Assembly: GCA_030426085.1 (NCBI GenBank)
Contig: JAUHYW010000069.1
Location: 1-59,228, forward strand
Source of the DNA: a bacterium
GTDB lineage: Bacteria; Myxococcota_A; Bradymonadia; UBA7976; UBA1532
DNA: 59,228 nucleotides
Direction: 5' to 3'
The notes under the pieces were generated by a model, which did not search any database, had not been told where the DNA came from, and saw only the letters and a program-made list of their open reading frames with translations. Numbering within the stretch: the stretch's first letter is position 1; each line of letters starts with the position of its first letter. A program made the position numbers and the translations under genes. Below are positions 2,582-30,541 of this stretch, one piece after another.

Positions 2582-3328
2582 TCAGGTTCGGGGCGAGGGC
2601 GTCAGCAGCGGCGCGAGCCGGGTCGAGAGTTCGTCGAGGAAGGCGGTCAGGCCGACGGCGTCGCCCCGGGCGCGCAGCGTATCGAGCGGCAGCGCGTGCA
2701 GCCCGCGCAGGGCGCGCCGGGGGTCGTGGGCGGTGAGGCGGCCGAGCACGGTCTTGGTGCCCCGGGGCAGGTCGTCGCGCTTGGGGGCGAGGCGGTGGGC
2801 CACGGCGTGGGGGTGGGCGCCGAGGTCGGCGCGCAGCGACGCGAGGGCCTCCTCTTCGGTGTCGTCGGCGGGGTCGAAGGCGACGATGCTCCACGCCTCG
2901 ACTTCGGGGGTGGGCAAGGCCAGCACGACCGCCGGGCCGGCGTCGACCCGGGCGGCTTCGAAGGACGGGCGGCGGTTCTGGCCGTCGTCGTCTCGCATCA
3001 GGATCACGGCGTTGGCGTCGGGTCGTTCGAGGGCGGTCCAGACGAGCGCCTTGCGGGCCTGGGCGGCCTCGCCCTTGATGGTCCGACCGTAGCGGCCATG
3101 GATCCGCAGGCGGCGATGCGGTCGGCCGGTGGGGCGCTTCTTGAGGTCGGTCCACTTGACGAACCAGACGTCGTCGTCGCCGTGACGGTGGCGGTCGCCG
3201 CGCCAGGCCCGCAGGGCGTCGAGCACGCCGTCGGCCCACGGGGCCGCGTCGCGCAGGATCCGGTCGGCGAGGCGCTGCGCGACCTGCGCGTCGGCGCGGG
3301 CCTCGCAGAAGACGACGCACTCAATCAT
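2582..3328 (-). CDS. TOPRIM-like (DUF4276/RloB-type) partner protein of an AAA ATPase
   Basis: 248 aa. The call rests on three spaced motifs: an N-terminal strand ending in a glutamate (VVFCEARAD, E9), an Asp triad after a hydrophobic strand (VILMRDDDGQ, D113-D115), and LPTPEVEAW near 138-146. The last resembles the pelEsW motif of DUF4276 proteins. Such a set of acidic residues suggests a metal-dependent TOPRIM nuclease or nucleotide-binding fold. It overlaps the upstream AAA gene by eight bases (3321-3328), so the two are translationally coupled. AAA plus TOPRIM pairs are known in OLD-family and PARIS defence modules, but I cannot assign this pair to either by eye. Confidence is high that the gene is real and moderate for the fold. 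Confidence 0.75.
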   Translation of the reverse strand: MIECVVFCEARADAQVAQRLADRILRDAAPWADGVLDALRAWRGDRHRHGDDDVWFVKWTDLKKRPTGRPHRRLRIHGRYGRTIKGEAAQARKALVWTALERPDANAVILMRDDDGQNRRPSFEAARVDAGPAVVLALPTPEVEAWSIVAFDPADDTEEEALASLRADLGAHPHAVAHRLAPKRDDLPRGTKTVLGRLTAHDPRRALRGLHALPLDTLRARGDAVGLTAFLDELSTRLAPLLTPSPRT

Positions 3329-4388
3329 CGGCGCCGATGACCCAGTCCTCGCCCTCGGCGCTCAGCAGCTCGCCGGTGGAGAGGACCCGCAAGAGGTCGC
3401 CGGCCCGGGGGTGATCGCTGAGGGCCCGGCAGCGGGTGACGCCGCTCGCGTCGAGCGCGAGGACCCGGACCTCGTCGGCTTCGAGCTCGTCGACGAGGTC
3501 GGCCGAGTGGGTGGTGGCGACGATCTGGAGGTCGGGGTCGAGCTCGAGCACCCGGCGCAGCGCGGCGACCAGCTCCCATTGGGCTCTGGGGTGCAGGGCG
3601 TGGTCGAGGTCGTCGATGAGCAGCAGCCGCGGGCGGGGGTCGGTGTGCAGGAGGGTGAGCAGGCCGATGGTGATGAGGGTGCCTTCGCTGACCGCGTGGG
3701 CCGGCACGCCGCGGGCGTTGTCGAAGTCGACGAGCAGCTCCATGCGGCCCTCTCGCGCCTGCTTGCCGTCGGGGCTCGGGGCCGAGACCGTGCGCACCCG
3801 CAGGCCGCTGACCTGGGGCACGACGCGGCGGGCGTCTTCGACGAGGGCGGCGAAGCCGTCGGCGCCGGAGAGGATCATCTCGGCGATGACCGCGGCGAGG
3901 CCTTCGCCGTCGTCGGCGAGGCGGGGGTCGGGGCGGATCGGGGCCGGGCGGGCGAGGGCCCGTCCGTCGAGGCGGAGGAGGACGGCGGGGGAGATGGCCT
4001 CGCGGACAACCAGCGGGATCGCTGCCGGGTTGCCGAAGTCGACCCGCTTGGGGTCATAGCTCACCGGCTCGGTCTCACCGAGCGTATGGCTCACCCGGGC
4101 TTCCCACCACTCCGCGGTTCCGATGAGGTTCAATGCGAGTTTCCACGTCGAAGCCACGACCGAGATGGTCAGATCCTCGGCGCCGAGGCGGATGAGAAGC
4201 CCCGGATCGCGAAGGTCGCCGAAAGCGCGGCCGAAACCCGACGAGGCGAGCCGGCCCATGGCATGCAGCGCCATCAGCACCGATGACTTGCCGCTCCCAT
4301 TCGGCCCGACCAGCACGGTGAGCCGGCCGAGGTCGATCGCCGTGTCGGCGTGCGTCTTGAGGTTCGTCAGCTCGATGCGCCGGATCAT
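3321..4388 (-). CDS. AAA_15/AAA_21-type (OLD/RecF-like) ATPase
   Basis: 355 aa. It starts with the RecF/SMC-like pattern IRRIELTNLKTHADT, then Walker A GPNGSGKSS at 28-36. An SEGT signature lies in HAVSEGTLITIGLLTLL, Walker B is LLLIDDLDHALHP near residue 255, and VATTHSADLVDEL is the H-loop region. The residue normally catalytic Glu after Walker B is Asp (IDDLD rather than IDE). The length suits single-domain AAA_15/21 ATPases that work with a separate effector. The effector is likely the TOPRIM-like protein overlapping its 3 prime end. Its ATG lies nine bases after the stop of the FliG-like gene on the same strand, so it may be co-transcribed with the motor-like operon. Confidence 0.85.
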   Translation of the reverse strand: MIRRIELTNLKTHADTAIDLGRLTVLVGPNGSGKSSVLMALHAMGRLASSGFGRAFGDLRDPGLLIRLGAEDLTISVVASTWKLALNLIGTAEWWEARVSHTLGETEPVSYDPKRVDFGNPAAIPLVVREAISPAVLLRLDGRALARPAPIRPDPRLADDGEGLAAVIAEMILSGADGFAALVEDARRVVPQVSGLRVRTVSAPSPDGKQAREGRMELLVDFDNARGVPAHAVSEGTLITIGLLTLLHTDPRPRLLLIDDLDHALHPRAQWELVAALRRVLELDPDLQIVATTHSADLVDELEADEVRVLALDASGVTRCRALSDHPRAGDLLRVLSTGELLSAEGEDWVIGADD

Positions 4389-4397
4389 GGCCTCACG

Positions 4398-6290
4398 CTA
4401 CGCCAGCAGCCCGTGGAACGCCACGCCGCGGCGGGTCAGGCGGCGCTGCAAGCCGGCCGACAGCGCGGCCCGGCCGTCGTTGGCCCGGGCGTAGAGCGCC
4501 GCGCCGCGCAGGGGCGGGGCGCCGCCGAGGGCCGCGCGCAGGGCGGTGGGCATGCGGGCCTCGATGGCGGTCTTGGCGGCCGCGGTCTGCACCGCGAGCC
4601 ACGCGGCGAGCGCGTCGGGGTCGACCTCCAGCAGCAGATCGGTGCGCAGCTCGTCGTCGAGGCGCAGGAGCATCTCGCCGAAGAGCGTGTCGTGCATCCA
4701 GCTCGGCAGGTGGCCCGCGTGGTGGCTCAGGGCGGCGTCGACCAGGGCCCGGCGGGTCTCGGGGTCGACGTGGGGCAGCATGATCGAGAGCGCGCCGGTG
4801 GCGTCGAAGGCCGAGCCGCGGTCCGAGACGGCGCCGTGGGGCGGCGGGGCCGGCACGCCCTCGCCCTTGCGCAAGGCGTCGAGCACGTCGAGCAGGTAGG
4901 TCGTCTCGGCGGGATCCATGCGGTTGGAGCGCATGAGCTGGCCCACCAGCGCGGCGAGGGTGCGGCCGTCGAGGCGGCGCACGGCCTCGTATTGCATCGC
5001 CTCGGGGGCGACGGCGAAGAGCAGCGCGCCGTGGCGGGCGGGCAGGCGGGCGACGGCGTCGACGAGGGCCGCCGGGCCGAAGTCGTCGTGCAGCGAGCGG
5101 ATGAGCCCGGTGTCGGGCTGGGCGGTGAGCGCGGCCGACATGGCGTAGCGGTCGAGGGTGTCGAAGAACTGGCCGTCGCTGGGCAGCGCGCCGCGGTCGG
5201 CGTGCTTGAGGAACTCGGCCAGCTCGAACTTGGCCGAGGCGAAGTCGCCGCCCTTGGGGAAGACCCGGGGGAAGGCGTCGGGGAAGAGGATGACGGCCTT
5301 GGCCAGCATCCGCCGCTCGCCGGTGCGCAGCAGGTCGGTGACGAGCACCTGGAGCACCTGGTCGGCCTCGAGGTCGCTGCGGGCGAGGCGGTCGCGCCAG
5401 GCGCGCAGGCGGGCCGAGACCCGCTCGGCTTCGAGGTCGGCCGGGTCGGCGTCGGGCTCGGCGTCGGCGTCCTCGGGGTCGTCGGGCGCGGCCGGGCCCT
5501 CGGCGGCGAGGCTGGCGATGAGGGCCTGCTCTTCGGGCGAGACCCGGCCCAGGCGGCGGGCGGCCCAGATGACGATCAGCGCGGCGAGGGTGGCGAGCAG
5601 CAGGCCGAGCATCCACGGGAAGTGGGGCAGCACGCTGAGCCACGCTTCGCGGCCGGCGACGGCGCCGTCCCAGGTCTCGGGGGCCGGGGGCGGGCCGGCG
5701 TCGGCTTCGGGCTCTTCGACCGGGGGCGCCTCGGGCTCCTCGGGTTCTTCGGGCTCTTCGGGCGGGTCGCGCAGGAAGTCGGGCAGGGGGTCGAGGCTCT
5801 CGAAGGTGACGTCGACCTTGGTCCAGCCGCTCGACAGCTTGGATCCGAGGCGCTTGGCGAGCGCCCGGGCGTTCTTGGCGGCGACCGAGGGCTCGTGGGC
5901 GAAGCTGCACTCGACGGTGGTGAGGTAGACCTGCTCGCCGTCGCCGCCCCCGGGGCCCGGGTCGAGCCCGAGGCCGGGCAGCGAGCGGGCGGCGGGGCGG
6001 TCGACGACGGTGTGCGAGACGTAGAGGCAGCCCTTGGAGAAGCAGCGCTCGGGGGCGCAGTCCCGGGCGAGGGCCTGTTCGAACTGGTGGCTCATGAGGC
6101 GCACCCCGGCCAGCACCGGCGGGGGGAGCTGGCGGTCGGGGACCTCGGCCCGCCGGGGGCCCTCGGGGGCGGCGGGCGCGGCGGGGGTCTGGGCTGCGGC
6201 GGGCGCGGCGAGCAGCGCGAGCGCGAGCAGGGCGGCCGCGCGCAGGGCCGGTGGCGTGGGTCGAGTCATCGGTGTCATCCGGGATGGCAT
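4398..6290 (-). CDS. Membrane-anchored FliG-like protein (FliF/FliG-like architecture)
   Basis: 630 aa. Order of parts: signal peptide (about 1-34), a periplasmic domain with four cysteines (C78, C83, C88, C128), a Pro/Glu-rich linker (about 175-205), one membrane segment (about 222-243), an acidic linker (about 265-290), and a helical cytoplasmic part (295-630). The last part follows the FliG middle and C-terminal pattern. LVDAVARLPARHGALLF and VAPEAMQYEAVRRL (409-440) resemble FliG-M. The stretch 516-590, with MHDTLFGEMLLRLDDEL and LLLEVDPDALAAWLAV, tracks FliG-C, where the family has MF.FEdl..ldD...q.LL.evd...L..AL. FliG is the rotor protein that stators push against. Here it is tethered by its own membrane segment and follows the MotB-like gene (TGATG overlap). 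The homology is by eye only. Confidence 0.72.
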   Translation of the reverse strand: MPSRMTPMTRPTPPALRAAALLALALLAAPAAAQTPAAPAAPEGPRRAEVPDRQLPPPVLAGVRLMSHQFEQALARDCAPERCFSKGCLYVSHTVVDRPAARSLPGLGLDPGPGGGDGEQVYLTTVECSFAHEPSVAAKNARALAKRLGSKLSSGWTKVDVTFESLDPLPDFLRDPPEEPEEPEEPEAPPVEEPEADAGPPPAPETWDGAVAGREAWLSVLPHFPWMLGLLLATLAALIVIWAARRLGRVSPEEQALIASLAAEGPAAPDDPEDADAEPDADPADLEAERVSARLRAWRDRLARSDLEADQVLQVLVTDLLRTGERRMLAKAVILFPDAFPRVFPKGGDFASAKFELAEFLKHADRGALPSDGQFFDTLDRYAMSAALTAQPDTGLIRSLHDDFGPAALVDAVARLPARHGALLFAVAPEAMQYEAVRRLDGRTLAALVGQLMRSNRMDPAETTYLLDVLDALRKGEGVPAPPPHGAVSDRGSAFDATGALSIMLPHVDPETRRALVDAALSHHAGHLPSWMHDTLFGEMLLRLDDELRTDLLLEVDPDALAAWLAVQTAAAKTAIEARMPTALRAALGGAPPLRGAALYARANDGRAALSAGLQRRLTRRGVAFHGLLA

Positions 6291-6913
6291 CAGTACACCC
6301 GCACGACGACCCGCCGGTGGCGGGCGAGGATCTGGTCTTCGGTGAGGCCGGCCAGCTCGTCTTCGGGCAGCGCCTGGGTGTCGGCGTAGCCCTCGACCCG
6401 CACCCGGCCGGGGTCGACGCCGACCCGCTCGAGCCGGACCCGCACGGCGTTGGCCCGGGCGGTCGACAGCTCCCAGTTCGACTGGAACGCCTGGCTGTTG
6501 ATGGGGCGGCTGTCGGTGTGGCCCTCGACGGCGAAGCGGTAGCGCGCGGCGTAGGGCACCAGCGTGTCGAGCATCGAGGCGAGCACGGGCTCCATGCCGG
6601 GCACGATGTCGGCCTCGGCGGTGTCGAAGACGACCCCCGAGTTGAGCGAGAGCTTGAGCCCGTCGTCGGTCAGGTCGGTCTGCACCACGTCCTCCAGGTC
6701 CTGCTCGCGGATGCGCTCGTCGATCTCTTCCTGGATCGAGGCCAGGCTGGCCGGGCTCGTCTGCCCCGAGAGCTTCTGGCGCACCGTCTGCATCTTGGTG
6801 GTGCTGATCTCGGCCATCGACAGCAGCATCACGAAGAAGATGAGCAGGTTGGTGATGAGGTCGGCGTACGAGAGCAGCCAGCTCTCGTTGTCGTCTGGGG
6901 TCCGGCGCTCCAC
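6290..6913 (-). CDS. MotB-like stator protein with OmpA peptidoglycan-binding domain
   Basis: 207 aa, GTG start four bases after the MotA-like stop. A short cytoplasmic N-terminus leads into one membrane helix (12-33) with YADLITNLLIFFVML. D18 sits where MotB carries its ion-binding aspartate. The C-terminal half is an OmpA-like peptidoglycan-binding domain: FAVEGHTDSRP, then NWELSTARANAV and VEGYADTQAL. The plug-like middle region is short. Together with the MotA-like gene it would form an ion-driven stator anchored to the cell wall. ExbD/TolR-type function is less likely because those lack the OmpA domain. The gene is coupled to the FliG-like gene by a TGATG overlap. Confidence 0.9.
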   Translation of the reverse strand: MERRTPDDNESWLLSYADLITNLLIFFVMLLSMAEISTTKMQTVRQKLSGQTSPASLASIQEEIDERIREQDLEDVVQTDLTDDGLKLSLNSGVVFDTAEADIVPGMEPVLASMLDTLVPYAARYRFAVEGHTDSRPINSQAFQSNWELSTARANAVRVRLERVGVDPGRVRVEGYADTQALPEDELAGLTEDQILARHRRVVVRVY

Positions 6914-6917
6914 GGGC

Positions 6918-7622
6918 TCACCCCCTCTCGCCTTCGGCCAGCTCGATGACCGTCTGCCGGCAGCGGCTCAGCGCCCCGAGGCGGCCGTCGAGCAGGCTGC
7001 GCAGGTAGTGGCCGATGGGCCCGGCGACCCCGGCCCCGAAGGCGATGCCGTAGAGCGTCGCGACGAGGGCCAGCGAGATGGCGGCGCCGATGTTGAGGTC
7101 TTCGTTGCCCATGTTGCGGAAGAGCTGGATCATGCCGGTGACGGTGCCGACCATGCCGAAGCTGGGGCCGAGGCGGGCGAGCAGCTCCCAGTTCGAGGTG
7201 GCCGGCTGCCAGCGCTCCAGCTCGGCGTGGCGCAGCTCGAGGAAGACGGTGCTCACCCGCTTCTCGCTGGCCCGGGCGAGCACGAGGCGCAGCATCTCCC
7301 GCACCGGGCCGGTGGCCCGCTCGGCGAAGTCCACCGCCTGGGCCCGCTTGCCGTCACGCCACAGCTCGGCGAACCGGGTGCGCTCGCGCTCGATCTGCGC
7401 GGTGCCTCTGTCGAGCTGGCCGGCGAACGGCAGCAGCTCCCGCAGGCAGAGCAGGGTGCGCAGGCTGGTCAGCGCGCTGGACGAGGTCATGATGGCCGCC
7501 GCGCAGCCGCCGAGCACGACGACGAGCGCGTGCAGGTCGATGGCGCTGACCTGGGTCATCTCGCGGTCGCTGAAGCCGTAGAGCACGACGCCGACGAGGC
7601 AGACGAGTCCGATGATCTGCAT
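6918..7622 (-). CDS. MotA-like stator protein
   Basis: 234 aa with the MotA/PomA layout: membrane helices at about 2-18, 31-52, 152-170 and 180-202, with a long cytoplasmic loop (about 55-148) rich in charged residues. The third helix carries the family motif as FGMVGTVTGMIQLF. The fourth is SLALVATLYGIAFG, as in MotA. The length fits MotA-type stators; there is no long C-terminal tail of the ZorA kind. It starts five bases after the stop of the upstream lipoprotein gene and precedes the MotB-like gene. Predicted role: five-subunit ring around the MotB-like dimer, using ion flow to push a cytoplasmic rotor, here plausibly the FliG-like protein. Confidence 0.9.
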   Translation of the reverse strand: MQIIGLVCLVGVVLYGFSDREMTQVSAIDLHALVVVLGGCAAAIMTSSSALTSLRTLLCLRELLPFAGQLDRGTAQIERERTRFAELWRDGKRAQAVDFAERATGPVREMLRLVLARASEKRVSTVFLELRHAELERWQPATSNWELLARLGPSFGMVGTVTGMIQLFRNMGNEDLNIGAAISLALVATLYGIAFGAGVAGPIGHYLRSLLDGRLGALSRCRQTVIELAEGERG

Positions 7623-7626
7623 GGGT

Positions 7627-8283
7627 TCAGTTGCCTCCCTGGCGCAGCGTCTCGAGCATCTCCCTCACCTGGGGGTCGCTCTCGATCTCTTCGACCGCTT
7701 CGTAGACTTCGATGGCTTTTTCGCGCTCGCCCATCAGGTACAGGATCGAGCCCTTGGCCCGCATGAACTCGGGGTGCGCCGGGTAGCGGGCGAGCACCAT
7801 CTCGGCCCACTCGAGCGCGAGCTGTACGTTGCCCGTCTCGAGGGCGTCCTGCATCAGCGTGCGCGAGCGGGTGATGCTGATGTCGGGCGCGTCGGCGTTC
7901 ACCCGCAGCCCGCGGGCCCGGTAGGCCTCGACGAGCGTGGCGTCGGCGATGGTCGGCTTGGGCGGCACCAGCCGGGTCGAGGGCAGGGTCTTGACCTCGC
8001 CCGAGGCGTCGCTGTGCTCGATGATGATGCGCTGGCCCCCGGCGAGCACCGGGATCTGCACCTCGGTGAGCACCTCGCCGTCGTTCCAGCTCACCTTCAT
8101 CACGGTGGTCGAGCCGAAGCCGAACGGGCGGGCGAGGGTGCCCTCGTCTTCGTCGAGCGCCGGGTTCTTCGCCGGGGCCGGCTCGATGAGGTAGGTGGTG
8201 TAGTTGCGGGCCGAGCACGCCGGGAGCAGGGCGCCCGACGCGAGGCAGGCCAGCAGCCACAGTGATGCGCGCGGGTGTCTCAT
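7627..8283 (-). CDS. Lipoprotein with C-terminal TPR-like helices, motor-like operon
   Basis: 218 aa. The signal peptide ends in a lipobox (LLPAC). A beta-rich middle follows (VMKVSWNDGEVLTEVQIPV and GGQRIIIEHSDASGEV). The C-terminal 80 residues are helical and TPR-like (TGNVQLALEWAEMVLARYP, then GEREKAIEVYEAVEE). ATG overlaps the upstream stop by ATGA. It probably sits in the periplasm or inner leaflet of the outer membrane. Its place immediately before the MotA-like gene suggests a structural part of the envelope complex. I do not recognise a named family. Confidence 0.75.
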   Translation of the reverse strand: MRHPRASLWLLACLASGALLPACSARNYTTYLIEPAPAKNPALDEDEGTLARPFGFGSTTVMKVSWNDGEVLTEVQIPVLAGGQRIIIEHSDASGEVKTLPSTRLVPPKPTIADATLVEAYRARGLRVNADAPDISITRSRTLMQDALETGNVQLALEWAEMVLARYPAHPEFMRAKGSILYLMGEREKAIEVYEAVEEIESDPQVREMLETLRQGGN

Positions 8284-9251
8284 GGCAGCACCGGCAGGAT
8301 GGTCGAGTTGAGCAGGGTGATGCCGACGCCGATCTCGCCGTTGGTCGAGATGGCGAGCAGGCCGGCGAAGTTGGAGCTGCCGATGGGCACCCGCAGCAGG
8401 CCGGTGACGGTCAGCACCGGGTCGAGGATGTCGATGTCGGCGTCGGCGATGCCCTGGGCGACGGCGGTGGGCACGCTGAGCAGGAGCTTGGCGCCGAGGG
8501 TCATGTGCAGCCAGGGCAGCACCCGGTGGTACGAGGCGCCGACGCCGAGCACCGGGTCGTAGAGCGAGAGGACGAAGCCGGTGAGGTTGCTGTTGGTGTC
8601 GCCCCACTGGTCGGCCCACTCCAGCGAGATGTGCTGGCCGGGGTACAGCGCGAGGTCGAACATGGCGTGGGTCAGGCTCTCGCCCCGGGCCCGGCGCTCC
8701 AGCTCTTCGGCGAGGCGGTAGGTGCGCTGGGTGCCGCTGTAGCTGCGCAGGTCGGGCTCGATGTTGCCGGCGAAGATCACCCGCCCGTTGCGCAGGTCGA
8801 CGATGCGCAGGGCGACGCCGGTCTGCGTCTCTTCGATCCACACCGCGCTGCGGGCGGGCGCGCTCTGGCCCCGGTAGCGCTCGTCGAAGGCGACGATCTC
8901 GTCGAGCGCGGTGGGGCCGCTGGATTGCAGCAGGTAGCCTTCGCCGACGGTGGTGCGGATGCGCATGCAGGCCTCGCACACCCGCACCCCGCCGTCGCCG
9001 AAGGCCCGCAGCAGCGCGGCGAGGGCCCGGGCCTCGAACCAGCCCTGCGACGCCTCGTAGCGGGGGGCGGCGGCGACGAGGATCAACGGCAGGATCTCGC
9101 TGTGATCGAGGCGGCCGGCCTCCTGGCGCAGCTCGAGCAGCTCTTCGAGGCGCTCCATGGCCTCGCGGGTGGTGTCCCGCTCGGCGGATGCCATCGATGG
9201 CATCAGGCACAGGGCGCCGCACAGCGCCAGGGTGGCCGGCCTCAGAAGCAA
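8280..9251 (-). CDS. Secreted CsgG/FlgO-like domain plus predicted outer-membrane barrel (paralogue of the upstream gene)
   Basis: 323 aa if translation starts at the TTG at 9251. That start has GAGG seven bases upstream, overlaps the preceding gene by ten bases, and yields a complete signal peptide (ATLALCGALCLMPSMASA). The nearest ATG (9203) would destroy the signal. The N-terminal half has a CEAC pair and TGVALRIVDLRNGRVIFAGNI, a pattern like the CsgG/FlgO/LpoB group. The C-terminal half is a run of alternating short strands (SLYDPVLGVGASYHRVLPW; NFAGLLAISTNGEIGVGITL), as in outer-membrane barrels. It shares this two-part layout with the gene at 9242-10390. Confidence 0.7.
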   Translation of the reverse strand: MLLRPATLALCGALCLMPSMASAERDTTREAMERLEELLELRQEAGRLDHSEILPLILVAAAPRYEASQGWFEARALAALLRAFGDGGVRVCEACMRIRTTVGEGYLLQSSGPTALDEIVAFDERYRGQSAPARSAVWIEETQTGVALRIVDLRNGRVIFAGNIEPDLRSYSGTQRTYRLAEELERRARGESLTHAMFDLALYPGQHISLEWADQWGDTNSNLTGFVLSLYDPVLGVGASYHRVLPWLHMTLGAKLLLSVPTAVAQGIADADIDILDPVLTVTGLLRVPIGSSNFAGLLAISTNGEIGVGITLLNSTILPVLP

Positions 9252-10390
9252 AACGAGACCTCGGCGCCGAAGCTGTGGAACTCGAGCCCGAACAGCGCGA
9301 CGAAGTCGCCGATGCGCTCCGAGTCGTTGAACGCGGGCATGTTCTCGAGGAAGGCCGCGGCGCTGATGCGATCCCCGACCCGCATCTCGAGGCCGAGGTG
9401 CAGCCCGGCGAAGGTGCCCCGCCCGGGGCCGCCCTCGTCGCTGAGCAGGGCCACCGCGTCGCCGTCGACGGTCATCAGCGCCGCCCCGAGGAAGAGGTAG
9501 ACGTCGGGGCCGGTCAGCGAGCGGGTCTGGCCGCTGATGAGCCGCGCCATGCGGGACTGCACCATGAAGCCGTCGTAGGCGTCGGGCAGCCAGGCGTAGC
9601 CCAGCACGAGGTCGGCCTTCCACCGGCGGGCCTGGGTCAGCGCCGCTTCGAACCCGGTCTGCAACCAGATGATCGGCGCCGGGGGGAACCCGCCCTCGTC
9701 CGATCCGGCGTAGGTCCGCACGGCGAACTTGATCGGGATGTTGAACGGGCCCCGGTCTTCGAGCGCGTCGAGGTACTCCTCGCGGGCCTCGGCGGCCGAC
9801 TTGAGGCGCTCGGGGTGGCGCAGCAGCGAGGGCTTGCCCACCGGGGAGGCGATGGTGCGGCTCCATACGATGGGCAGGTCGGGGGTCAGCCGGGTGATGC
9901 GGGCCCGCAGGACGAGCCAGGCGCCCTCGGCGGCGAGGTCGATGTACAGGCCGTGGCGCCCGCCGGCACCGCCCATCTTCTCGAGCGTCTCGGGGTTGTC
10001 CAGGCCCCGGGAGACGACGGTGCCTTCGGGGCCGGAGTGCACGACCATCGCGGTGCAGGTGGGGCAGGCCGAGAGCACGAGGCTCGAGCGGGGGTTGGCC
10101 AGCAGCAGCGCGGCGAGGTGGTTCTCGACGAGGCCGGCGAGGCCGCTGCCCATGCCCACCGGTACGGTGAGGTCGGCGAGGATGACCGGGGTCGGCTCGC
10201 CGAACGGCGGGGCCTGGGTCATGTCGTGGATCAGCTCGTCGAGCAGGTCGAAGGCCGAGAGCTGGACCTGACCGGCGATCACCCGGCGCAGCTCTTCGAG
10301 CTCGGCTCGCTGCGCTTCTTCGGCGGTGATCGCGCCGGCGAGCGTCGGGATCAGGGCCAGCGCGCAGGCGAGGGGCAGGGCGCGGATCAT
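9242..10390 (-). CDS. Secreted CsgG/FlgO-like domain plus predicted outer-membrane barrel
   Basis: 382 aa, ATG overlapping the upstream stop (ATGA). It has a signal peptide (ALPLACALALIPTLAGA). The first half has VILADLTVPVGMGSGL, a CPTC pair, and WLVLRARITRLTPDLPIVW, recalling FlgO/LpoB/CsgG-type periplasmic domains. Residues after about 240 are amphipathic strands typical of a barrel (GFEAALTQARRWKADLVLGY), ending in Phe (EVSFCF), as outer-membrane proteins often do. It precedes a shorter paralogue. Vibrio flagella use FlgO, FlgP and FlgT as outer-membrane rings, which makes the co-occurrence with a MotAB/FliG-like set notable. The family assignment is tentative. Confidence 0.72.
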   Translation of the reverse strand: MIRALPLACALALIPTLAGAITAEEAQRAELEELRRVIAGQVQLSAFDLLDELIHDMTQAPPFGEPTPVILADLTVPVGMGSGLAGLVENHLAALLLANPRSSLVLSACPTCTAMVVHSGPEGTVVSRGLDNPETLEKMGGAGGRHGLYIDLAAEGAWLVLRARITRLTPDLPIVWSRTIASPVGKPSLLRHPERLKSAAEAREEYLDALEDRGPFNIPIKFAVRTYAGSDEGGFPPAPIIWLQTGFEAALTQARRWKADLVLGYAWLPDAYDGFMVQSRMARLISGQTRSLTGPDVYLFLGAALMTVDGDAVALLSDEGGPGRGTFAGLHLGLEMRVGDRISAAAFLENMPAFNDSERIGDFVALFGLEFHSFGAEVSFCF

Positions 10391-11046
10391 CGCAGCCACC
10401 GCCACGCGCCGTCGGCGCAGTAGCCCACGTTGAGGATGGTCGCCCGCCGGTCGCGCAGGGCGATGCCCATCAGCGCGTCGCCGGGTCCGAGCGATCCGCC
10501 GGCCACGTAGCGGGTGCAGGCGAGGGGCCACGCCCGCTGGGGGTCGATGCGGCCGATGACCTCGACGTCGCCCGCGGCGAGGGTCGGGGCCCGGTCGCTG
10601 ACGGTGAGGCCGGCGGCCATCAGGGCGTTCTTGGCGGCGAACTCGACCTTGCCGGCGACGTGCAGGTCGGGGTGGTAGACCTCGACCAGCCAGGTGCGGC
10701 GGCGCAGCGGGTCGGCGAGGCCGGCGATGTGGCCCGCCATCTCGTCGGCGGCGGTCCGCAGCGTGGACAGGATCGCCTCGTCCCGGGCCCGGCGCACGCC
10801 CTCGGGCATCAGCCGGGCCCGGCAGATCACCGCCCGGCGCTCGAAGAAGTCGCCCCGGGGGGCGGGGGTCTCGATGCGGCCCGGCGCCTGCTGGCGGGCG
10901 GCCTCGGTGCTCAGCGCCTCGCAGTCGAGCGCGCGCAGCTCGCGGGCGCTGCCGGTGAGCGGGCCGATGAAGCCGTCGACCGGATCCCGGATCTCTTCGA
11001 TGAGCGAGGGCAGCGCGAAGAGCAGCACGTACAGCCAGAACTCCAT
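10387..11046 (-). CDS. Envelope protein of the motor-like operon, N-terminal anchor
   Basis: 219 aa. The N-terminus is a short hydrophobic segment (EFWLYVLLFALPSLIEEI) that could be an uncleaved anchor or signal. The rest is soluble. It includes cysteines spaced like disulfide pairs and a C-terminal domain with VEFAAKNALMAAGLTVSDR and GDVEVIGRIDP, resembling the small alpha/beta domains of LPP20/CsgG-like secreted proteins. It starts three bases after the upstream lipoprotein stop and overlaps the next gene by ATGA. The function is unknown; context places it in the same envelope complex. Confidence 0.7.
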   Translation of the reverse strand: MEFWLYVLLFALPSLIEEIRDPVDGFIGPLTGSARELRALDCEALSTEAARQQAPGRIETPAPRGDFFERRAVICRARLMPEGVRRARDEAILSTLRTAADEMAGHIAGLADPLRRRTWLVEVYHPDLHVAGKVEFAAKNALMAAGLTVSDRAPTLAAGDVEVIGRIDPQRAWPLACTRYVAGGSLGPGDALMGIALRDRRATILNVGYCADGAWRWLR

Positions 11047-11049
11047 GGG

Positions 11050-11658
11050 TCAGCCGGGCCCCGTCGGGCGGCCTTCGGCGAGCACCCGCCGCCGCACCCG
11101 GGCGTTGAGCGCGAGCTGGCTGAGCTGGGCGTAGAAGTCGGCCGAGAAGTCCTCGTCGGCGTCCGAGAAGAAGCCCCACCGCTTGACGAAGCGGCCGGTG
11201 AGGGTGTCCCGGGCGAGCATGAACCCGGTCTCGTCGCGGATGACGACGTCCTGGGCGACGGTGTAGTCCGAGACGTGCTCCCAGAAGAGCCAGTCGGTGA
11301 TCTGGCGGTGCAGGATGCGGGCGGTCAGCTCGACGCGCAGGGCGGTGCGGGGGGTCGCGGGGGCCTCGGCGTCGGGCTCGGGCTCGGCGGCGGGGGCGCC
11401 GGGGGTGTGGATCTCGACCCGGGCGCCCTGGTTCTCGAAGAGGCGGGCGACCCGGCGGCAGAGCGCGCCGGCTTCGGTGGCGTCGACGGCCCCGCCCGGC
11501 GGGCAGCGGACCTCGATGTCGACGTCGGTGAAGTTGGGCCGGGTGGGGTCGACGGCGACCGGGCGGTGCAGGCCCGACATGGGCTGGTAGACCACGACCG
11601 TGCACCCCCCGGACAGCAGGGCGGCGAGCAGGGCGAGGGGTGTGCCGCGGGGCGCCAT
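11050..11658 (-). CDS. Lipoprotein, first gene of the motor-like operon
   Basis: 202 aa. ATG at 11658 with GGAGA nine bases upstream; longer in-frame extensions would run into the promoter region. The signal peptide ends with lipobox LLSGC-like (ALLSGGC). The body holds CPPGGAVDATEAGALCRRVARLFENQGARVEI split by a Pro/Glu linker, then LRVELTARILHRQITDWLFW and an Asp-rich segment. The strand-helix-strand pattern recalls LptE/DUF4136-like lipoproteins, but I cannot name it. It heads a run of minus-strand genes with gaps of nine bases or fewer down to 2582. Confidence 0.72.
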   Translation of the reverse strand: MAPRGTPLALLAALLSGGCTVVVYQPMSGLHRPVAVDPTRPNFTDVDIEVRCPPGGAVDATEAGALCRRVARLFENQGARVEIHTPGAPAAEPEPDAEAPATPRTALRVELTARILHRQITDWLFWEHVSDYTVAQDVVIRDETGFMLARDTLTGRFVKRWGFFSDADEDFSADFYAQLSQLALNARVRRRVLAEGRPTGPG

Positions 11659-24250: not shown

Positions 24251-26287
24251 GTGTCCGGCTTTACCCGAGTCCTGCCATTCGCCGCCGCCGCCCTGCTCGT
24301 GGGCGGCCTCGCCGGCTGCAAGGTGCCGCTGACCGACATCGCCGCCCGCTTCGTCGTGGCCGACGCCGCGTGGTTCGCCGAGGAGGAGACGCTCTTCGTC
24401 TTCTACGAGGTCGAGGCCGAGCAGGGGCTGAGCGTCGAGACCACCGTCGAGCTCCGCTACGTGACCGACGACGGGGTCGTCGACTGGACCGAGCTCGGCG
24501 ACATCGAGCCGGTGCACACCCACGTCCCGGTGGACTGCGGGCCGAACACCCGCTGCGGCAGCACCAGCATCCACGTCCCGCTCGAGCCGCGCGACGTCGA
24601 GGTCCGGATGCGCTACCACCGGGACGGCGCTCTGACGCTCGACCCCGAGACCCGGCTGAACGTCATCGGCCCCGGCCCGGCCCACAGCAACCGCAGCCTG
24701 CTGGTCTACGGCGTCTTCGACGAAGACAACCGGGGCGTGCAGTGGCGGGCGCGGCACCTCTTCCCCACGCTGCGCAACATGGAGGTCGAGCGGTTGGGGC
24801 TGCGGCGGCGGTTCACCGTCGATCTGATCAGCCGGGCCGGCGCGGCGCCCGAGCCGAACGGCAACGCCTACCTGTACGGCGTCCGCTGCGAAGACCCCGT
24901 CGCGCTCGACTGGCAGACCGTCGAGACCGAGGACCGGGCGATCTTCAGCCCCGAGGAGCTGCCCGAGTCGGCGTTCGCAGCGGAGACCGTCTGCGCCCGG
25001 GCCACCGTCTACGACCCCACCGGGCCCTTCGCCGCCAGCGCCGTCGCCCGCAAGAACCCCGAGGTGCGCCCGGCCTTCCCGCTGCTGCGCAGCCCCATCA
25101 AAGAAGCCACCCCCATCAAGTACTTCCTGCGCGTCTGCGACCGCACGATCTCGGGCCCGCACGCCGAGATGCAGCAGCAGCGGCTGCTGATGGAGGGCAT
25201 CGCCGCCATCTGCATCGACGCCTGGGCCGACCCCGACCGGGTCGACGCCGAGGTCGACGCGTTCGTGGCCCGGGTGCGCGACGACCTCGAGGCGGTGCGC
25301 GCGGCCGGGCGGGACATGGTCATCGCCCTCGCGATCCACCACGACGACCCGGCGGTGTTCGCCGCGGCGCTCGAGCAGACGCTGGCCGAGATCATCACCC
25401 CCGAGCTGGCCCGCAATACACCCCGGCTCGTGGGCGGCTTCGTCTTCGACAGCTTCGAGTACACCCTCACCGACGCCACCGTCGGCTCGACGGTGCTGTG
25501 GTGCCCGGCCCTCATCGACCTCGACCCCGACGCCCTCGAAGACGGGGTGCTGCCCATCCCGACGACCGGCCTGTCCAGCCTCGTCTGCGCGCTGCCCGCC
25601 GAGGATCTGCGGCTGAGCCTGGGCCCGTTCAACCTGGGGGCGCTGCCCATCCTGCCCAGCCGGGCCAAGTACCTCAGCTTCCTCGACATCTACACCGCCG
25701 ACGAGGCGGGGCGCATGAACTCGCTGACCTTCCTGGCGCCCGAGCTGCCGCCCAACGCCGACAGCCTGTCGCTGCCGCCCTTCGGATCGGTCACCTTCTT
25801 CAACGACGAGCAGATCAGCGCCGAGGCGGACGACGCCTTCTCGTACTGCGAGACCCAGGGCGAGGCGACGACGGTGGTCTTCCGCTCGGGCGCGGTGCCG
25901 ATCTTCCTGCCGGTGGCCGCGCTGCCCGACTGGCACGCGGCCTTGCAGGAAGAGAGCTATGGCCTGGGCCTGACCTGGGAGTTCCCCTATCTGCTCGAGC
26001 TGAACTACGAGGCGGTCGCCGCGCTGGCGGTCTCGGCGTTCGGGGCCAGCCTGCCGCTGGGGCTGGGCACCGACGTCGACCAGGACTACGGCAGCGCGGT
26101 GTGGAAGACCGGCGAGTTCCCGCTGGCCCGCAGCCTGACCCAATGCCGGCGCTACTGCGGGCACCCGACCTTCGACGCGGCGGGGGTCTACCAGATCGAG
26201 GATCTGTTCTCGGTGGCCTATCGCACGGTGTGCTACACGCCGGCCTTCCCCGCGCGGGGCGACGACGGGTTCCCGTATGATCCGTGA
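24251..26287 (+). CDS. Large lipoprotein of unknown function
   Basis: 678 aa. GTG at 24251 lies five bases after GAGG and gives a signal peptide with lipobox GLAGC. The body has many cysteines and mixed beta/alpha character (FYEVEAEQGLSVETTVELRY; RVRDDLEAVRAAGRDMVIAL; FVFDSFEYTLTDATV). No family is recognised. The gene overlaps the next one by 11 bases and heads a four-gene run of envelope proteins (24251-29772). A surface or periplasmic location is expected. Confidence 0.78.
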   Translation: MSGFTRVLPFAAAALLVGGLAGCKVPLTDIAARFVVADAAWFAEEETLFVFYEVEAEQGLSVETTVELRYVTDDGVVDWTELGDIEPVHTHVPVDCGPNTRCGSTSIHVPLEPRDVEVRMRYHRDGALTLDPETRLNVIGPGPAHSNRSLLVYGVFDEDNRGVQWRARHLFPTLRNMEVERLGLRRRFTVDLISRAGAAPEPNGNAYLYGVRCEDPVALDWQTVETEDRAIFSPEELPESAFAAETVCARATVYDPTGPFAASAVARKNPEVRPAFPLLRSPIKEATPIKYFLRVCDRTISGPHAEMQQQRLLMEGIAAICIDAWADPDRVDAEVDAFVARVRDDLEAVRAAGRDMVIALAIHHDDPAVFAAALEQTLAEIITPELARNTPRLVGGFVFDSFEYTLTDATVGSTVLWCPALIDLDPDALEDGVLPIPTTGLSSLVCALPAEDLRLSLGPFNLGALPILPSRAKYLSFLDIYTADEAGRMNSLTFLAPELPPNADSLSLPPFGSVTFFNDEQISAEADDAFSYCETQGEATTVVFRSGAVPIFLPVAALPDWHAALQEESYGLGLTWEFPYLLELNYEAVAALAVSAFGASLPLGLGTDVDQDYGSAVWKTGEFPLARSLTQCRRYCGHPTFDAAGVYQIEDLFSVAYRTVCYTPAFPARGDDGFPYDP

Positions 26288-27200
26288 CTGGCGGGCGCGG
26301 GCGCTGATCCTGGCGCTGGCGGTGTCTGCGGCCCACGCGCAGCCCGGAGAGCCACCCATAGAGCCATCCGCAGAGCCATCGGAGCCGCCATCGGAGCAGC
26401 CATCGGAGGAGGGGCCCGCCGAGGCATCCGAGGCCCCGTCGAGCGATCCGCCGCCCTTCGCCGATCCCATCCCCGAGCCCGAGCGGCTGCCCGACACCGC
26501 CATCGAGGCGCACCGCACGCCGTTCGACACCCTGGTCGATCGGGCCATCGGCCGCACCTCGCGCCCGGTGCGCTACGACTGGCGCAAGGCCACCGTCGAG
26601 GTCGGCCTCTCGGGCGCGCTGCCCGCCGAGCTGAACAACTTCCAGAGCTGGCGGGCGGGGGCCTTCGCCCGGGTGCCGGTCTCGGGCCTGCTGCTCGGCG
26701 TCGAGGCGTCTTATGTCTGGGTGTATGGCACCGACAGCACCGATCGGCTGGCGCTGACGCCGTATCGCCAGCCGGGGCGCCCCGATCGGATCGAGGTCGA
26801 CCTGACGCTGGCGTTCCCCCTCGCCGAAGGCATCGTGACCGCCTGGCCCGGCTGGTTCCCTTCGGCCGAGCTGGTCTTGCAGAGCCACCTCGACGTCCGC
26901 TACCTGCTCTACACCGGCGCCTTCGACGGATACGACTTCACCGACACCGCCCGGGCGCTGTTCTCGGGCAGCCTCTCCGACCGCGACCTGGCCAACCTCG
27001 AGAGCGACCGCCTGCCCGGCATGCAGATCGACCGCGGGCGCTACGCCATCCTCGCCGGGCTGGGCGCCGATCTGTACTTCCAGTCGGGGCTCTTCTTCAG
27101 CCACAAGCTGCTCGTCGCCGTGCCGCTGCTGGCCGCGGCGACCGAGTCCGAGCTGTACGTCTGGCTCGAGCTGCACCTGCTGACCGGCATCTCGTTCTGA
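26277..27200 (+). CDS. Predicted outer-membrane beta-barrel protein with Pro/Glu/Ser stalk
   Basis: 307 aa. The signal peptide (ALILALAVSAAHA) is followed by a low-complexity stretch of PSE-type repeats (PSAEPSEPPSEQPSEE). From about residue 100 come alternating amphipathic strands (ATVEVGLSGALPAEL; LLLGVEASYVWVYG; DLTLAFPLAEGIV), ending in aromatic Phe (LLTGISF), as in barrel proteins. It is coupled to the preceding lipoprotein and the following gene (TGATG). Confidence 0.72.
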   Translation: MIRDWRARALILALAVSAAHAQPGEPPIEPSAEPSEPPSEQPSEEGPAEASEAPSSDPPPFADPIPEPERLPDTAIEAHRTPFDTLVDRAIGRTSRPVRYDWRKATVEVGLSGALPAELNNFQSWRAGAFARVPVSGLLLGVEASYVWVYGTDSTDRLALTPYRQPGRPDRIEVDLTLAFPLAEGIVTAWPGWFPSAELVLQSHLDVRYLLYTGAFDGYDFTDTARALFSGSLSDRDLANLESDRLPGMQIDRGRYAILAGLGADLYFQSGLFFSHKLLVAVPLLAAATESELYVWLELHLLTGISF

Positions 27201-29110
27201 TGCTCGCCCTGCTGCTCGTCGGCCTGCTGGCGCCCCCGCCGGCCGAGCCATCGCCCCAGACGCTGGTCTATTACAACGCCCGCATGGCGCTGCGCGAGGG
27301 CCGGCCGCTGGAGGCCGTCGAGCTGTGGCTGCTGCGCAACGCCATCGCCAGCGAGACCGGGCGGGTGAGCGCGTACGACGTCGACCTGCGCTCGAACACC
27401 TGGGCCGCGCTGGGCGCGCTGGGCTTCTGCCCCGACGGGCTGCCGGCCGACGACGACGGGGTCGGGCTGTGGCCGGTGGCGATGCACAACTGGACCGTGC
27501 GCAACCGCCGCCCGGCGCCGCCCGACAGCGAAGCGGCGCCGTTCGACGCCTTCGAGGTCGGCCGGCAGCAGCGGTGGGTCTCGCTGAACGACGTGCTCGA
27601 CGCCGACGAGCTGAAGGCGGTGAAGCTGCGCCGCACCGAGTGCTGGTGGGGCAACCGGCTGGTGACCCGGGTCGCGCTGCCGTGGACCGAGCTGACCGAC
27701 AGCCGGGTGGCCGCCGAGGTGATGCGGGCGCTCTTGCGGGAGGCGCTGACGACGCTCGATCGGGGGCGCACGGTGGGGCTGGCGGCGATCGAGGCCCGCA
27801 TCTTCGACCTCGAGCTGCGCATCACCGGCCTCGGGGCCCGCGCCCGGCGGCGGGCCCGGCGGGAGGCGGTGATCGAGGGCCGCCGCCGGGGCCTGAGCCG
27901 GGACGAGCTGAGCGCGCTGGGGCGGGACGCGGCGCCGACGATCGCGCCCGACAGCGTGCCCGGCCGCATCCTGCGCCGCAGCCTCGCCTGGAGCGCCGAG
28001 GAGTGGATGACCCTCTCCCCCGAGCGCCGGCAGTATCTCTTCGGGCACGCCATGCGCTCGGCCGGCGCGATGACCCCCCCGCCGGACATGGCCGCCAGCC
28101 GGCGGCTGATCCTGAAGGTGATCGATCAGCTCATCGAGCGGCGGGCCGGCGCCGAGATCGGCGGCTGGATCGCGCACCTGGGGTCGGACGAGGCCAGCCG
28201 GCGCCTGGTGTGGGCCGGCGACCGCGGCGCGGGCCTGCTGAGCCTCGACGCGGAGTCCGGCTTCCGCGAGCGGGCCCCCATCGCGCTGCACCGGGGCGTC
28301 GATCAGCTCGCCCGGGGCGACCTGCCGGGGTCGCTGCGCACGCTGGCCCTGGCGCTGAAGTGGTCCGAGACCTCCCGGGCCGGCGACGCGGCGCGCAACC
28401 TCGCCCGGCGCTGGCTCTCGTTCGTCGCCGCGCAGTTCCGGGTGACCGACGGCCTGCTGACGATGCTGCGCACGGTGGTGCCCCGGACCGACTTCACCGC
28501 GGTGCTCGAAGACCAGCTCTGGCACGCGGCGCTCAACGCGGACGGCGCGTCGTTCGACCGCTGCCTACGGCATCAGGTGGGGCGGGGCGCGCTGGTGCAG
28601 CGCAGCGCGCTCTTGCGGCCGCTGGCCGACGGGGACGGGGGCGCCTTCGCGACGCAGGTGATCGCCGCGATCGACGAGTCGCCCTACTTCGCGGTGCGCT
28701 TCCTGGGGCAGTTCCTCGACCGGCTCGCGGCGCAGGAGACCGCGGTCCGGGCCCGCTACGTGCCCGTGCTGCGCCCGCTGAAGGATCGGCTCGAGCGGCT
28801 GCTGGCCGAGGATCAGAGCGGGCGCGGGCAGCGGCGGGTGCAGGGGCTCGTCGACCGCATGCGGGCCATCATCGACGGGCTGGTGCCGATGCCCGACGAC
28901 GCCTCCGAGGCCGACCGGGCCCACGGGCTGTCGGCCGATCGCGCGCTGTACGTGGGCAGCGTGCGGGTCGCGCCCTCCGACCCGCTGCCGTGGCCCTTCC
29001 GGGTGCCGATCGTGCAGGCCCCGTCGGTTTTCCTGCCGCTCGAGCTGCGCCCCGAGGAGTGGCGGATCGACGGCCGACGGGTCTTCGGCTGGCGGGTGCA
29101 GGAGCCATGA
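27200..29110 (+). CDS. Secreted helical protein of unknown function
   Basis: 636 aa. A short N-terminal hydrophobic segment (LALLLVGLLAPPP) looks like a signal peptide. The mature part is mostly helical, with Arg/Ala-rich stretches that may form a coiled coil (about 195-235: AAIEARIFDLELRITGLG) and TPR-like helices. Conserved-looking aromatic patches include ECWWGNRL. The gene starts inside the stop codon of the barrel gene (TGATG) and overlaps the next gene by ATGA. I recognise no family. Confidence 0.72.
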   Translation: MLALLLVGLLAPPPAEPSPQTLVYYNARMALREGRPLEAVELWLLRNAIASETGRVSAYDVDLRSNTWAALGALGFCPDGLPADDDGVGLWPVAMHNWTVRNRRPAPPDSEAAPFDAFEVGRQQRWVSLNDVLDADELKAVKLRRTECWWGNRLVTRVALPWTELTDSRVAAEVMRALLREALTTLDRGRTVGLAAIEARIFDLELRITGLGARARRRARREAVIEGRRRGLSRDELSALGRDAAPTIAPDSVPGRILRRSLAWSAEEWMTLSPERRQYLFGHAMRSAGAMTPPPDMAASRRLILKVIDQLIERRAGAEIGGWIAHLGSDEASRRLVWAGDRGAGLLSLDAESGFRERAPIALHRGVDQLARGDLPGSLRTLALALKWSETSRAGDAARNLARRWLSFVAAQFRVTDGLLTMLRTVVPRTDFTAVLEDQLWHAALNADGASFDRCLRHQVGRGALVQRSALLRPLADGDGGAFATQVIAAIDESPYFAVRFLGQFLDRLAAQETAVRARYVPVLRPLKDRLERLLAEDQSGRGQRRVQGLVDRMRAIIDGLVPMPDDASEADRAHGLSADRALYVGSVRVAPSDPLPWPFRVPIVQAPSVFLPLELRPEEWRIDGRRVFGWRVQEP

Positions 29111-29772
29111 GCCGGCCGTCCCCCCGCGAGGCGCGCCGGGCGGCCCGGCGGCTGATGAAGCAGCGGCGGGCCGAGGTGAAGGCCCGGCTGGCGGCGGCCC
29201 GGGCGCCGGCCGATCGGGCCCGGCGGCGGCGCAGCCTGCGGCGGCGGCTGGCGCTGCTGGCGATCCTGCTGTTGATCTACCTGCTGCTGCGGAGCTGCGA
29301 CTGCGACGACCCGCCGGGGGCCGGTCCGATCGCCGACATGGGCCCCGACGCGGCGGCGATGGCCGACGACATGGGGCCCGACGCCGCCCGGCTGCGCCCC
29401 CGGAAGAAGGCCGCGAAGCCGCGCCCCATCGAGGCCCCCATCCGGGGCACCGGGCGCCCGACCTTCGAGAACCCGACCCCCGCGCCACCGGACTGGCTCG
29501 TCGCCCTGCGCATCCAGGTCTCGGCCCGCGGCCCGCGGCTGGCCCGGTGCTTCGAGGGCGCCGACCGGCCCGGCGCGCTGCGGTGGAGCGCCCGGGTCGA
29601 CATCCCCCGGGGCGTGGTCTCGGATCACGACTTCGAGCCGGTGCTGGACGGGGCCGATCTGTCCAAGGACCTGCGGCGGTGCCTGATCGGCGTGCTGGCC
29701 GATCCGCGGTATCATCTGCCGCCGGCCCCCGAGGCGGGCCAGCCGCGTATCTCCATCGTCGTCGAGTTCTGA
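29107..29772 (+). CDS. Inner-membrane protein with AgmX/PglI-like (TonB-like) C-terminal domain
   Basis: 221 aa. An Arg-rich cytoplasmic N-terminus leads to one membrane helix (LALLAILLLIYLLLRSC). A periplasmic Pro/Asp stalk contains two GPDAA units. The C-terminal 90 residues (LARCFEGADRPGALRWSARV, then GVVSDHDFEPVLDG, a second Cys in RRCLIGVL, and a final strand) follow the AgmX/PglI C-terminal pattern of two cysteines around a G.V segment. That domain is common in Myxococcota and related to energy-transducing TonB proteins. No ExbB/ExbD pair is adjacent. It may couple inner and outer membranes for the barrel protein of the same operon. Confidence 0.75.
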   Translation: MSRPSPREARRAARRLMKQRRAEVKARLAAARAPADRARRRRSLRRRLALLAILLLIYLLLRSCDCDDPPGAGPIADMGPDAAAMADDMGPDAARLRPRKKAAKPRPIEAPIRGTGRPTFENPTPAPPDWLVALRIQVSARGPRLARCFEGADRPGALRWSARVDIPRGVVSDHDFEPVLDGADLSKDLRRCLIGVLADPRYHLPPAPEAGQPRISIVVEF

Positions 29773-29791: not shown

Positions 29792-30541
29792 ATGGATCCG
29801 GCGTTCTTCGAACTGCACAGCGGCCTCGAGCGGGAGGGGCCGGGCAGCGAGGCGAGCACCCGCGAGGCCCTCGCCCGATGCGGGCCGCTGCCCGACGCGC
29901 CGCGGGTGGTCGACATGGGCTGCGGGCCGGGCGCGTCGGCGATCACCCTGGCCCGGGCGCTGCCCGACGCCCGGATCGTCGCGGTCGACACCCACGGGCC
30001 GTTCCTCGACGCGCTCACCGCCCGGGCGGCCGCGGCCGGGGTGGGGGATCGGATCGAGACCTGGCACGGCTCGATGCTCGACTACCGCCCGCCGGAGCCG
30101 GTCGATCTGTTCTGGAGCGAGGGCGCGGCCTACAGCGTCGGCGTCGAGGCGGCGCTGAAGGCGTGGCGCCCGCTCGGCGCGCCGGGCGCTCGGGTGGGGT
30201 TGAGCGAGCTGGTGTGGCTGTCGGCCGATCCGCCGCCCGCGCTGCGGGCGACCTTGCAGGTGGAGTATCCCCCGATGGGTGATCGGGAGACCCTGCGAGC
30301 CCGGGTCGCCTCGGCCGGGTGGCGCCCGATGAGCGACGTCGTCCTGCCGGCGCGGGACTGGGCCAACTACTACGGGCCGTTGAAGGCGCGGGCGGCGGCG
30401 ATGCGCTCGCGGGCCGTGGATGATCCGGCGATGGCGGCCGTGCTCGACGAGGCCGACGCCGAGGCGGCGCTGTACGCGGCGCACGGCGCGGACTATGGCT
30501 ATGCCTTCATCGTCGCCGAGCTGCCCGGGGGGTCGCCGTGA
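29792..30541 (+). CDS. Class I SAM-dependent methyltransferase
   Basis: 249 aa. The SAM-binding motif I is VVDMGCGPGASAITLA. Acidic loop RIVAVDTHG and motif II-like FWSEGAAYSVG follow. RBS GGGAGG upstream. The fold is UbiE/Methyltransf_11-like and the substrate is unknown. It is 19 bases after the AgmX-like gene and coupled by TGATG to the next small secreted protein. Confidence 0.85.
   Translation: MDPAFFELHSGLEREGPGSEASTREALARCGPLPDAPRVVDMGCGPGASAITLARALPDARIVAVDTHGPFLDALTARAAAAGVGDRIETWHGSMLDYRPPEPVDLFWSEGAAYSVGVEAALKAWRPLGAPGARVGLSELVWLSADPPPALRATLQVEYPPMGDRETLRARVASAGWRPMSDVVLPARDWANYYGPLKARAAAMRSRAVDDPAMAAVLDEADAEAALYAAHGADYGYAFIVAELPGGSP

Follow-up and report, generated by a model that had tools for sequence, protein, structure and literature searches.

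Genes at the locus

The DNA analyzed here (the window) is a stretch of 59,228 nucleotides, positions 1 to 59,228 of contig JAUHYW010000069.1 in assembly GCA_030426085.1, from a bacterium of the Myxococcota_A (Bradymonadia; UBA7976; UBA1532). It carries a set of 12 genes, in two blocks, which combines a MotA/MotB stator pair with a membrane-tethered FliG-like protein. Genes 1 to 8 span 11658-4398 on the minus strand and are tightly packed, as an earlier note made from the sequence alone had described, with spacings of 3, -4, -10, -4, 4, 4, and -1 bases between successive genes (negative values are overlaps).

11050..11658, minus strand: gene 1, outer lipoprotein of 202 amino acids with an invariant lipobox Cys19; no family matched; first in all complete loci
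10387..11046, minus strand: gene 2, 219 amino acids with a hydrophobic stretch at the N-terminus and conserved Cys; no family matched
9242..10390, minus strand: gene 3, 382 amino acids with a signal peptide, an invariant CxxC (C109/C112), and an invariant C-terminal Phe; no family matched
8280..9251, minus strand: gene 4, secreted protein of about 307-323 amino acids (start codon uncertain) with an invariant CxxC (C92/C95); no family matched
7627..8283, minus strand: gene 5, TPR lipoprotein of 218 amino acids with an invariant lipobox Cys23
6918..7622, minus strand: gene 6, MotA-type stator subunit of 234 amino acids; R93 invariant and E101 mostly kept, cytoplasmic loop
6290..6913, minus strand: gene 7, MotB-type stator subunit of 207 amino acids; invariant channel Asp18 and an OmpA peptidoglycan-binding domain with D134/R153
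4398..6290, minus strand: gene 8, membrane-tethered FliG-like protein of 630 amino acids

The only Pfam and NCBIfam matches within these eight genes of the window are to MotA_ExbB, MotB_plug, OmpA, and TPR, which bears out the MotA-like, MotB-like, and TPR assignments of the earlier note. Its description of genes 3 and 4 as CsgG/FlgO-like barrel paralogs could not be upheld: neither gene matched anything in Pfam, NCBIfam, and PDB profile searches, a CsgG/FlgO domain included, and no kinship between them could be demonstrated by comparison. Gene 3 is nonetheless probably an outer-membrane barrel, a candidacy suggested by its invariant terminal Phe, which is as found in outer-membrane barrels. 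The exported parts of genes 3 and 4 each have one invariant CxxC and the periplasmic domain of gene 8 has four invariant Cys, and disulfide or metal sites are likely at these positions.

A flagellar-type stator pair

Gene 6 matches MotA_ExbB (E 5.5e-16), gene 7 matches both MotB_plug (1.6e-14) and OmpA (3.9e-12), and gene 5 matches TPR. Within the gene 7 family the channel Asp (D18) and the peptidoglycan-binding residues D134 and R153 are invariant in 19/19 members. In gene 6, R93 is invariant and E101 almost so; the spacing of eight residues between them matches that of R90 and E98, which contact FliG in E. coli, and the two pairs may be functionally equivalent.

Profile comparisons place the gene 6/7 pair closest to flagellar stators, with gene 6 scoring 2.5e-15 against a flagellar motor model versus 0.0056 for tolQ and 0.27 for exbB2. 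A MotA tree separates three groups: the MotAs of this cluster, those of the flagella in the same genomes, and the TolQ/ExbB-type proteins; it was made by a quick method and is unrooted, so a sister relation between cluster MotA and flagellar MotA is not readable from it. Judged by sequence, genes 6 and 7 are a flagellar-type MotA/MotB stator.

A membrane-tethered protein with a FliG fold

Gene 8 is predicted to consist of a signal peptide, a periplasmic Cys domain, one transmembrane helix, Pro/Glu linkers, and a cytoplasmic superhelix resembling the M and C domains of FliG (FliG M+C).

5766..6146, minus strand: gene 8 periplasmic domain, residues 49-175, with four invariant Cys; alpha-beta-beta-alpha-beta predicted at low confidence
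5547..5633, minus strand: gene 8 transmembrane helix, residues 220-248, ending in a positive-inside RR motif
4437..5111, minus strand: gene 8 FliG M+C-like region, residues 394-618, with a FliG_C-like part at residues 532-618 (nucleotides 4697-4437)

We modeled residues 290-630 with AlphaFold, from an alignment of just two sequences, the window protein and a relative, with no FliG among them. The twelve best Foldseek matches of this model in the PDB are all FliG (best E 2.3e-4, probability 1.00), and the first unrelated fold in the list appears at E 0.15. Re-alignment to the FliG C-terminal domain 1qc7 gave a Z of 7.3 and 2.5 Å with 84/89 residues, and re-alignment to 8ucs_H, the FliG of a MotAB-FliG complex, gave 2.8 Å over 84 residues. 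A Z near 7-9 may arise by chance between helical repeats, and we accept the FliG fold because FliG tops both structure lists, with MgtE N-domains ranking below it in each, rather than because of the Z value alone. The cytoplasmic part of gene 8 as modeled therefore has a FliG fold. Structure prediction had been proposed in the earlier note as the check on this domain, and it finds the fold there; the note had placed it at residues 516-590, and the model puts it at about 394-618, with the FliG_C part at 532-618.

Profile methods see this relationship less clearly. A Pfam search with the gene 8 protein of the window gives no FliG match, and a PDB profile search gives a weak match to a FliG N-domain (E 0.79). 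Across the gene 8 family, MgtE_N, which is related to the FliG repeats, is matched in 16/19 members (best E 1.2e-8), and FliG_C is matched in one member at E 0.025. The model of the periplasmic domain has a mean predicted local distance difference test score (pLDDT) of 48 and most closely resembles cation-efflux C-terminal domains. Ring-building motifs share the alpha-beta-beta-alpha-beta topology, from which we draw no conclusion for gene 8.

The second block, genes 9-12

In relatives, comparison of the flanking DNA shows that four further genes directly follow gene 8 on the same strand. These were missed in the earlier note, which had the order of the set right and its size too small. In the window they are set apart on the plus strand as a second block (24251-29772), in which stops and starts overlap.

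24251..26287, plus strand: gene 9, large lipoprotein of 678 amino acids with many invariant Cys; no family matched
26277..27200, plus strand: gene 10, 307 amino acids, probable outer-membrane barrel (last residue F/L); no family matched
27200..29110, plus strand: gene 11, exported protein of 636 amino acids; no family matched
29107..29772, plus strand: gene 12, 221 amino acids, with the N-terminus inside, a single transmembrane helix, a periplasmic linker, and a C-terminal domain similar to an AgmX/TonB-type tail

All four genes follow gene 8 at 8 loci, and genes 9-11 do so before the contig ends at 5 more. The block lies on a different contig from gene 8 in a genome of the same genus and follows gene 8 in a genome of the same family. 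Pfam and NCBIfam searches returned zero matches for genes 9-12, so that eight of the 12 genes (1-4 and 9-12) are of no known family. In hhalign, the C-terminal domain of gene 12 matches AgmX/TonB-type tails over its full length and keeps both Cys; the match is weak (P 0.012, or 0.048 reversed). Proteins with AgmX/PglI tails above the cut-off number 14 in the same genome, versus none in controls, which fits Myxococcota. A methyltransferase gene (29792-30541, plus strand) begins 20 bases past gene 12.

Conservation and distribution

Clear relatives of gene 8 occur in 24 of 379 sampled genomes of the phylum, the genome of the window included, and one scan of the genome contigs returned a single locus. 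Genes 1-8 have the same order and orientation in 14 other loci from several families (gene 8 is cut by the contig end in one), and the overlaps between neighboring genes are near-identical across them. Six further loci are truncated by contig ends and show no break in gene order. Identities across the relatives' loci are about 36-88%, and the keeping of gene order over this range indicates an old, selected synteny. The order of genes 1-8 is far beyond chance. That the genes might not be kept together in relatives had been named in the earlier note as the finding that would count against it; they are.

Gene 11 is present in 20 of the 24 genomes with gene 8, and the four without it are draft genomes. 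Among the 355 genomes without gene 8, one partial match and one very weak match were the only ones found, and the co-occurrence of genes 8 and 11 is strong (Fisher p 2e-28, counting the partial match). A profile search with the gene 8 family across the phylum gave no clear extra carrier, and no relatives of the cluster were found among viral contigs.

At G189:C423:12163-12567, in another family of the same class, lies a sequence that distantly matches the FliG_C-like part of gene 8 (E 1.9e-6) and is possibly a remote version of it. Next to gene 8 in the window, an AAA_21 ATPase gene (355 amino acids, minus strand) starts 9 bases past its end and is overlapped by a partner gene of 248 amino acids, both within 2582-4388. 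The pair has weak similarity to the defense ATPases MADS3 and PtuA. We considered both as members of the system and rejected them, since neither is kept beside the cluster in relatives.

Relation to flagella

The earlier note described a machine without a flagellum. Inside the window we found no flagellar marker gene, but the same genome has flgB-flgC-fliE-fliF-fliG on contig C131 (1-3770, an operon truncated where the contig stops); flhA lies on C134, and C11 encodes two further MotBs. By this gene content the organism is probably flagellated, and the idea that its own genome lacks a flagellum has to be dropped.

What remains of the claim is the independence of the cluster. Four genomes that are 88-95% complete (G069, G175, G220, and G248) have the cluster and lack both FliG_C and FlhA, and in each of them the cluster MotB is the only MotB_plug gene; two of the four are congeneric drafts, which agree. 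Conversely, the cluster is absent from 142 of the 160 FliG-bearing genomes of the sample, and flagellated carriers mostly own separate MotBs. The 12 genes match no FliF, FliM, FliN, export, or axial gene families. FliG is found in 18/24 genomes with the cluster versus 142/355 without it (p 0.001, uncorrected for kinship), a moderate association that shared ancestry may explain. This pattern of presence and absence supports the independence of the cluster from flagella.

Other flagellar-type genes outside the window were encountered. Contig C84 of the same genome (51642-51959, minus strand) encodes a stand-alone FliG C-domain protein of 133 amino acids, with no flagellar neighbors in the stretch read, which seems to retain the torque-helix pattern (SLRAGQRLVED); a genome of the same genus has a 135-amino-acid match to it at G209:C87:107130-107450. 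A second, more distant FHIPEP (FlhA-family) gene lies at C37:73306-75099, with counterparts in G209, G073, and G261, and is possibly part of an injectisome.

A proposed envelope-spanning machine

On balance, and with modest confidence, we think that the 12 genes encode a flagellum-independent, envelope-spanning machine in which an ion-driven MotA/MotB stator acts on the tethered FliG-like protein of gene 8. Such a machine has probably gone undescribed; its role would be to move or pull something through the envelope, and we infer that its parts form one motor. Genes 6 and 7 would make an ion-driven channel held to peptidoglycan through the OmpA domain of MotB. The cytoplasmic ring of MotA would push on the FliG M+C-like domain that gene 8 has on the same side of the membrane, the fold being that of the model and the contact presumed. 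With its transmembrane helix and periplasmic domain, gene 8 may join the FliG role and the anchor role of FliF in one chain, and it could transmit either rotation or a conformational stroke across the inner membrane. A FliF-FliG fusion (8z4d) is among the PDB entries listed, and its existence makes a tethered FliG mechanically reasonable. Gene 12, as a TonB/AgmX-like inner-membrane arm, would together with genes 1-5 and 9-11 carry force to the outer membrane, a transfer to which export signals and co-conservation point. By analogy with Agl-Glt/Nfs, surface movement or transport of outer-surface material would be the likeliest task, as a first guess.

Several observations weigh against this interpretation. 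None of the 12 genes hints at a cargo, and the set is split into two blocks within the genus of the window. The gene 8 model has a mean pLDDT of 65.6, with the matched last 230 residues mostly at 67-90 with lower dips. Alignment of gene 8 to 16 flagellar FliGs by hhalign gives E 0.06-0.09 versus 0.4-0.8 for reversed controls, which is not significant alone. The positions of the FliG torque residues R281, D288, and D289 (Salmonella numbering) are occupied in gene 8 by Ala/Ser, Gly/Ala/Ser, and Ala/other, respectively, and the FliM-binding EHPQ(R) motif is absent from the gene 8 family alignment. Since neither the torque-helix charges nor EHPQ(R) are conserved, the contact between MotA and gene 8 need not work as it does in flagella.

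A more specific version, which we put forward tentatively as a possibility, is a second FliG-based rotary motor outside the flagellum, with gene 8 forming a small rotor ring that is turned by its own MotA/MotB and rotates or drags an outer-membrane apparatus. If so, the stator-FliG engine would be a portable module that serves more than the turning of a filament. FliG is regarded as a flagellar hallmark, and here a FliG fold and an OmpA-bearing MotB occur in a conserved set that persists without flagella. If the parts work together, they offer a natural system in which to ask what use a stator and rotor have when there is no filament and by what route the flagellar motor may have come together; the eight families with no assigned role would also gain a context open to testing.

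The main rival, which we rate as rather unlikely, is a Tol/TonB-like energizer, a push-pull, non-rotary link between inner and outer membrane for envelope upkeep or uptake, with the FliG-like domain as a docking scaffold and gene 12 as the TonB-like arm. The weak end-to-end alignment of gene 12 with AgmX/TonB-type tails fits this explanation, as do the missing torque charges of gene 8 and the several outer-membrane and lipoprotein partners in the set. However, the stator is of the MotA/MotB type rather than the TolQR/ExbBD type, both by the OmpA domain of MotB and by the profile scores of gene 6, and the FliG fold of gene 8 would be foreign to such a system, as we know of no TonB-type system with a FliG-fold protein. 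An improbable alternative is that the resemblance to FliG reflects a generic MgtE_N/ARM-like superhelix, a scaffold around stators like the E-ring proteins MotE, FlgY, and FlbB. MgtE_N is indeed the only Pfam family widely matched in the gene 8 family, and E-ring proteins combine an MgtE_N-type domain with TPR partners (PMC13023049), which recalls the TPR lipoprotein of gene 5. Yet the full FliG M+C outranks MgtE in both structure comparisons, the C-terminal part of gene 8 fits FliG_C alone at 2.5 Å, and the signal peptide followed by a transmembrane helix at 220-248 and then RR predicts a cytoplasmic domain, whereas the E-ring domains are periplasmic.

That genes 6-8 are an accessory stator set working with the cell's own flagellar motor, or a relic recently derived from it, is very improbable and largely refuted. 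The probable flagellation of the organism and the excess of FliG among cluster carriers would be expected under such a scheme, but four carriers of 88-95% completeness lack FliG and FlhA, most FliG-bearing genomes do without the cluster, flagellated carriers mostly have MotBs of their own, and no FliM, FliN, FliF, axial, or export gene is among the 12; the high conservation also speaks against a relic. Least likely of all, and disfavored to the point that we would be surprised by it, is a Zorya-like defense against phages, with a MotAB-like channel as the sensor of infection. ZorB models do match gene 7 (2.5e-17). The ten genes scanned gave no match to ZorA, ZorC, ZorD, or ZorE, the remaining proteins are exported or belong to the envelope, and the gene order is stable. 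ZorA has a long tail, which the 234-amino-acid MotA of gene 6 does not.

Comparison with known systems

The likeness of the present set to Zorya (ZorAB) is confined to its ZorB-like MotB; unlike Zorya, the 12 genes include no ZorC/D/E, no ZorA match, and no partner acting on nucleic acids. With the E-ring proteins MotE, FlgY, and FlbB (PMC13023049, PMC11870540) it shares an MgtE_N/FliG-type superhelix tied to stator function and TPR partner proteins, but E-ring domains are periplasmic and flagellar, while that of gene 8 is predicted to be cytoplasmic and includes a FliG_C domain.

The Agl-Glt/Agl-Nfs machinery of Myxococcus xanthus, which moves surface material, likewise couples an ion-driven stator to a set of inner- and outer-membrane proteins (PMC3858216). 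The analogues here would be the TPR proteins, the barrels, and the TonB/AgmX-like arm. The stators differ: AglRS is grouped with the generic transporters of the TolQR/ExbBD type (PMC12505986), whereas in the present set gene 6 does not group with the TolQ/ExbB-type proteins, gene 7 carries an OmpA domain, and one protein has the FliG fold. In the same 2025 stator phylogeny, torque-type stators are described as flagellar and the non-flagellar ones as lacking an OmpA-like domain (PMC12505986).

The closest resemblance is to the flagellar stator and rotor, with which the set shares the MotA and MotB types, the channel Asp, the OmpA peptidoglycan anchor, the R/E pair of the MotA loop, and a FliG M+C fold predicted on the cytoplasmic side. 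Unlike in the flagellar motor, the FliG-like domain is fused to a transmembrane helix and a periplasmic domain and lacks the torque charges and EHPQ(R). The 12-gene set has no FliF, FliM, FliN, export apparatus, rod, hook, or filament; instead it has nine other envelope genes, the majority without a recognized family, and it occurs without flagella. We found no described system of this kind in the open-access papers searched. The type of engine is already known; the combination and the set of partners are not.

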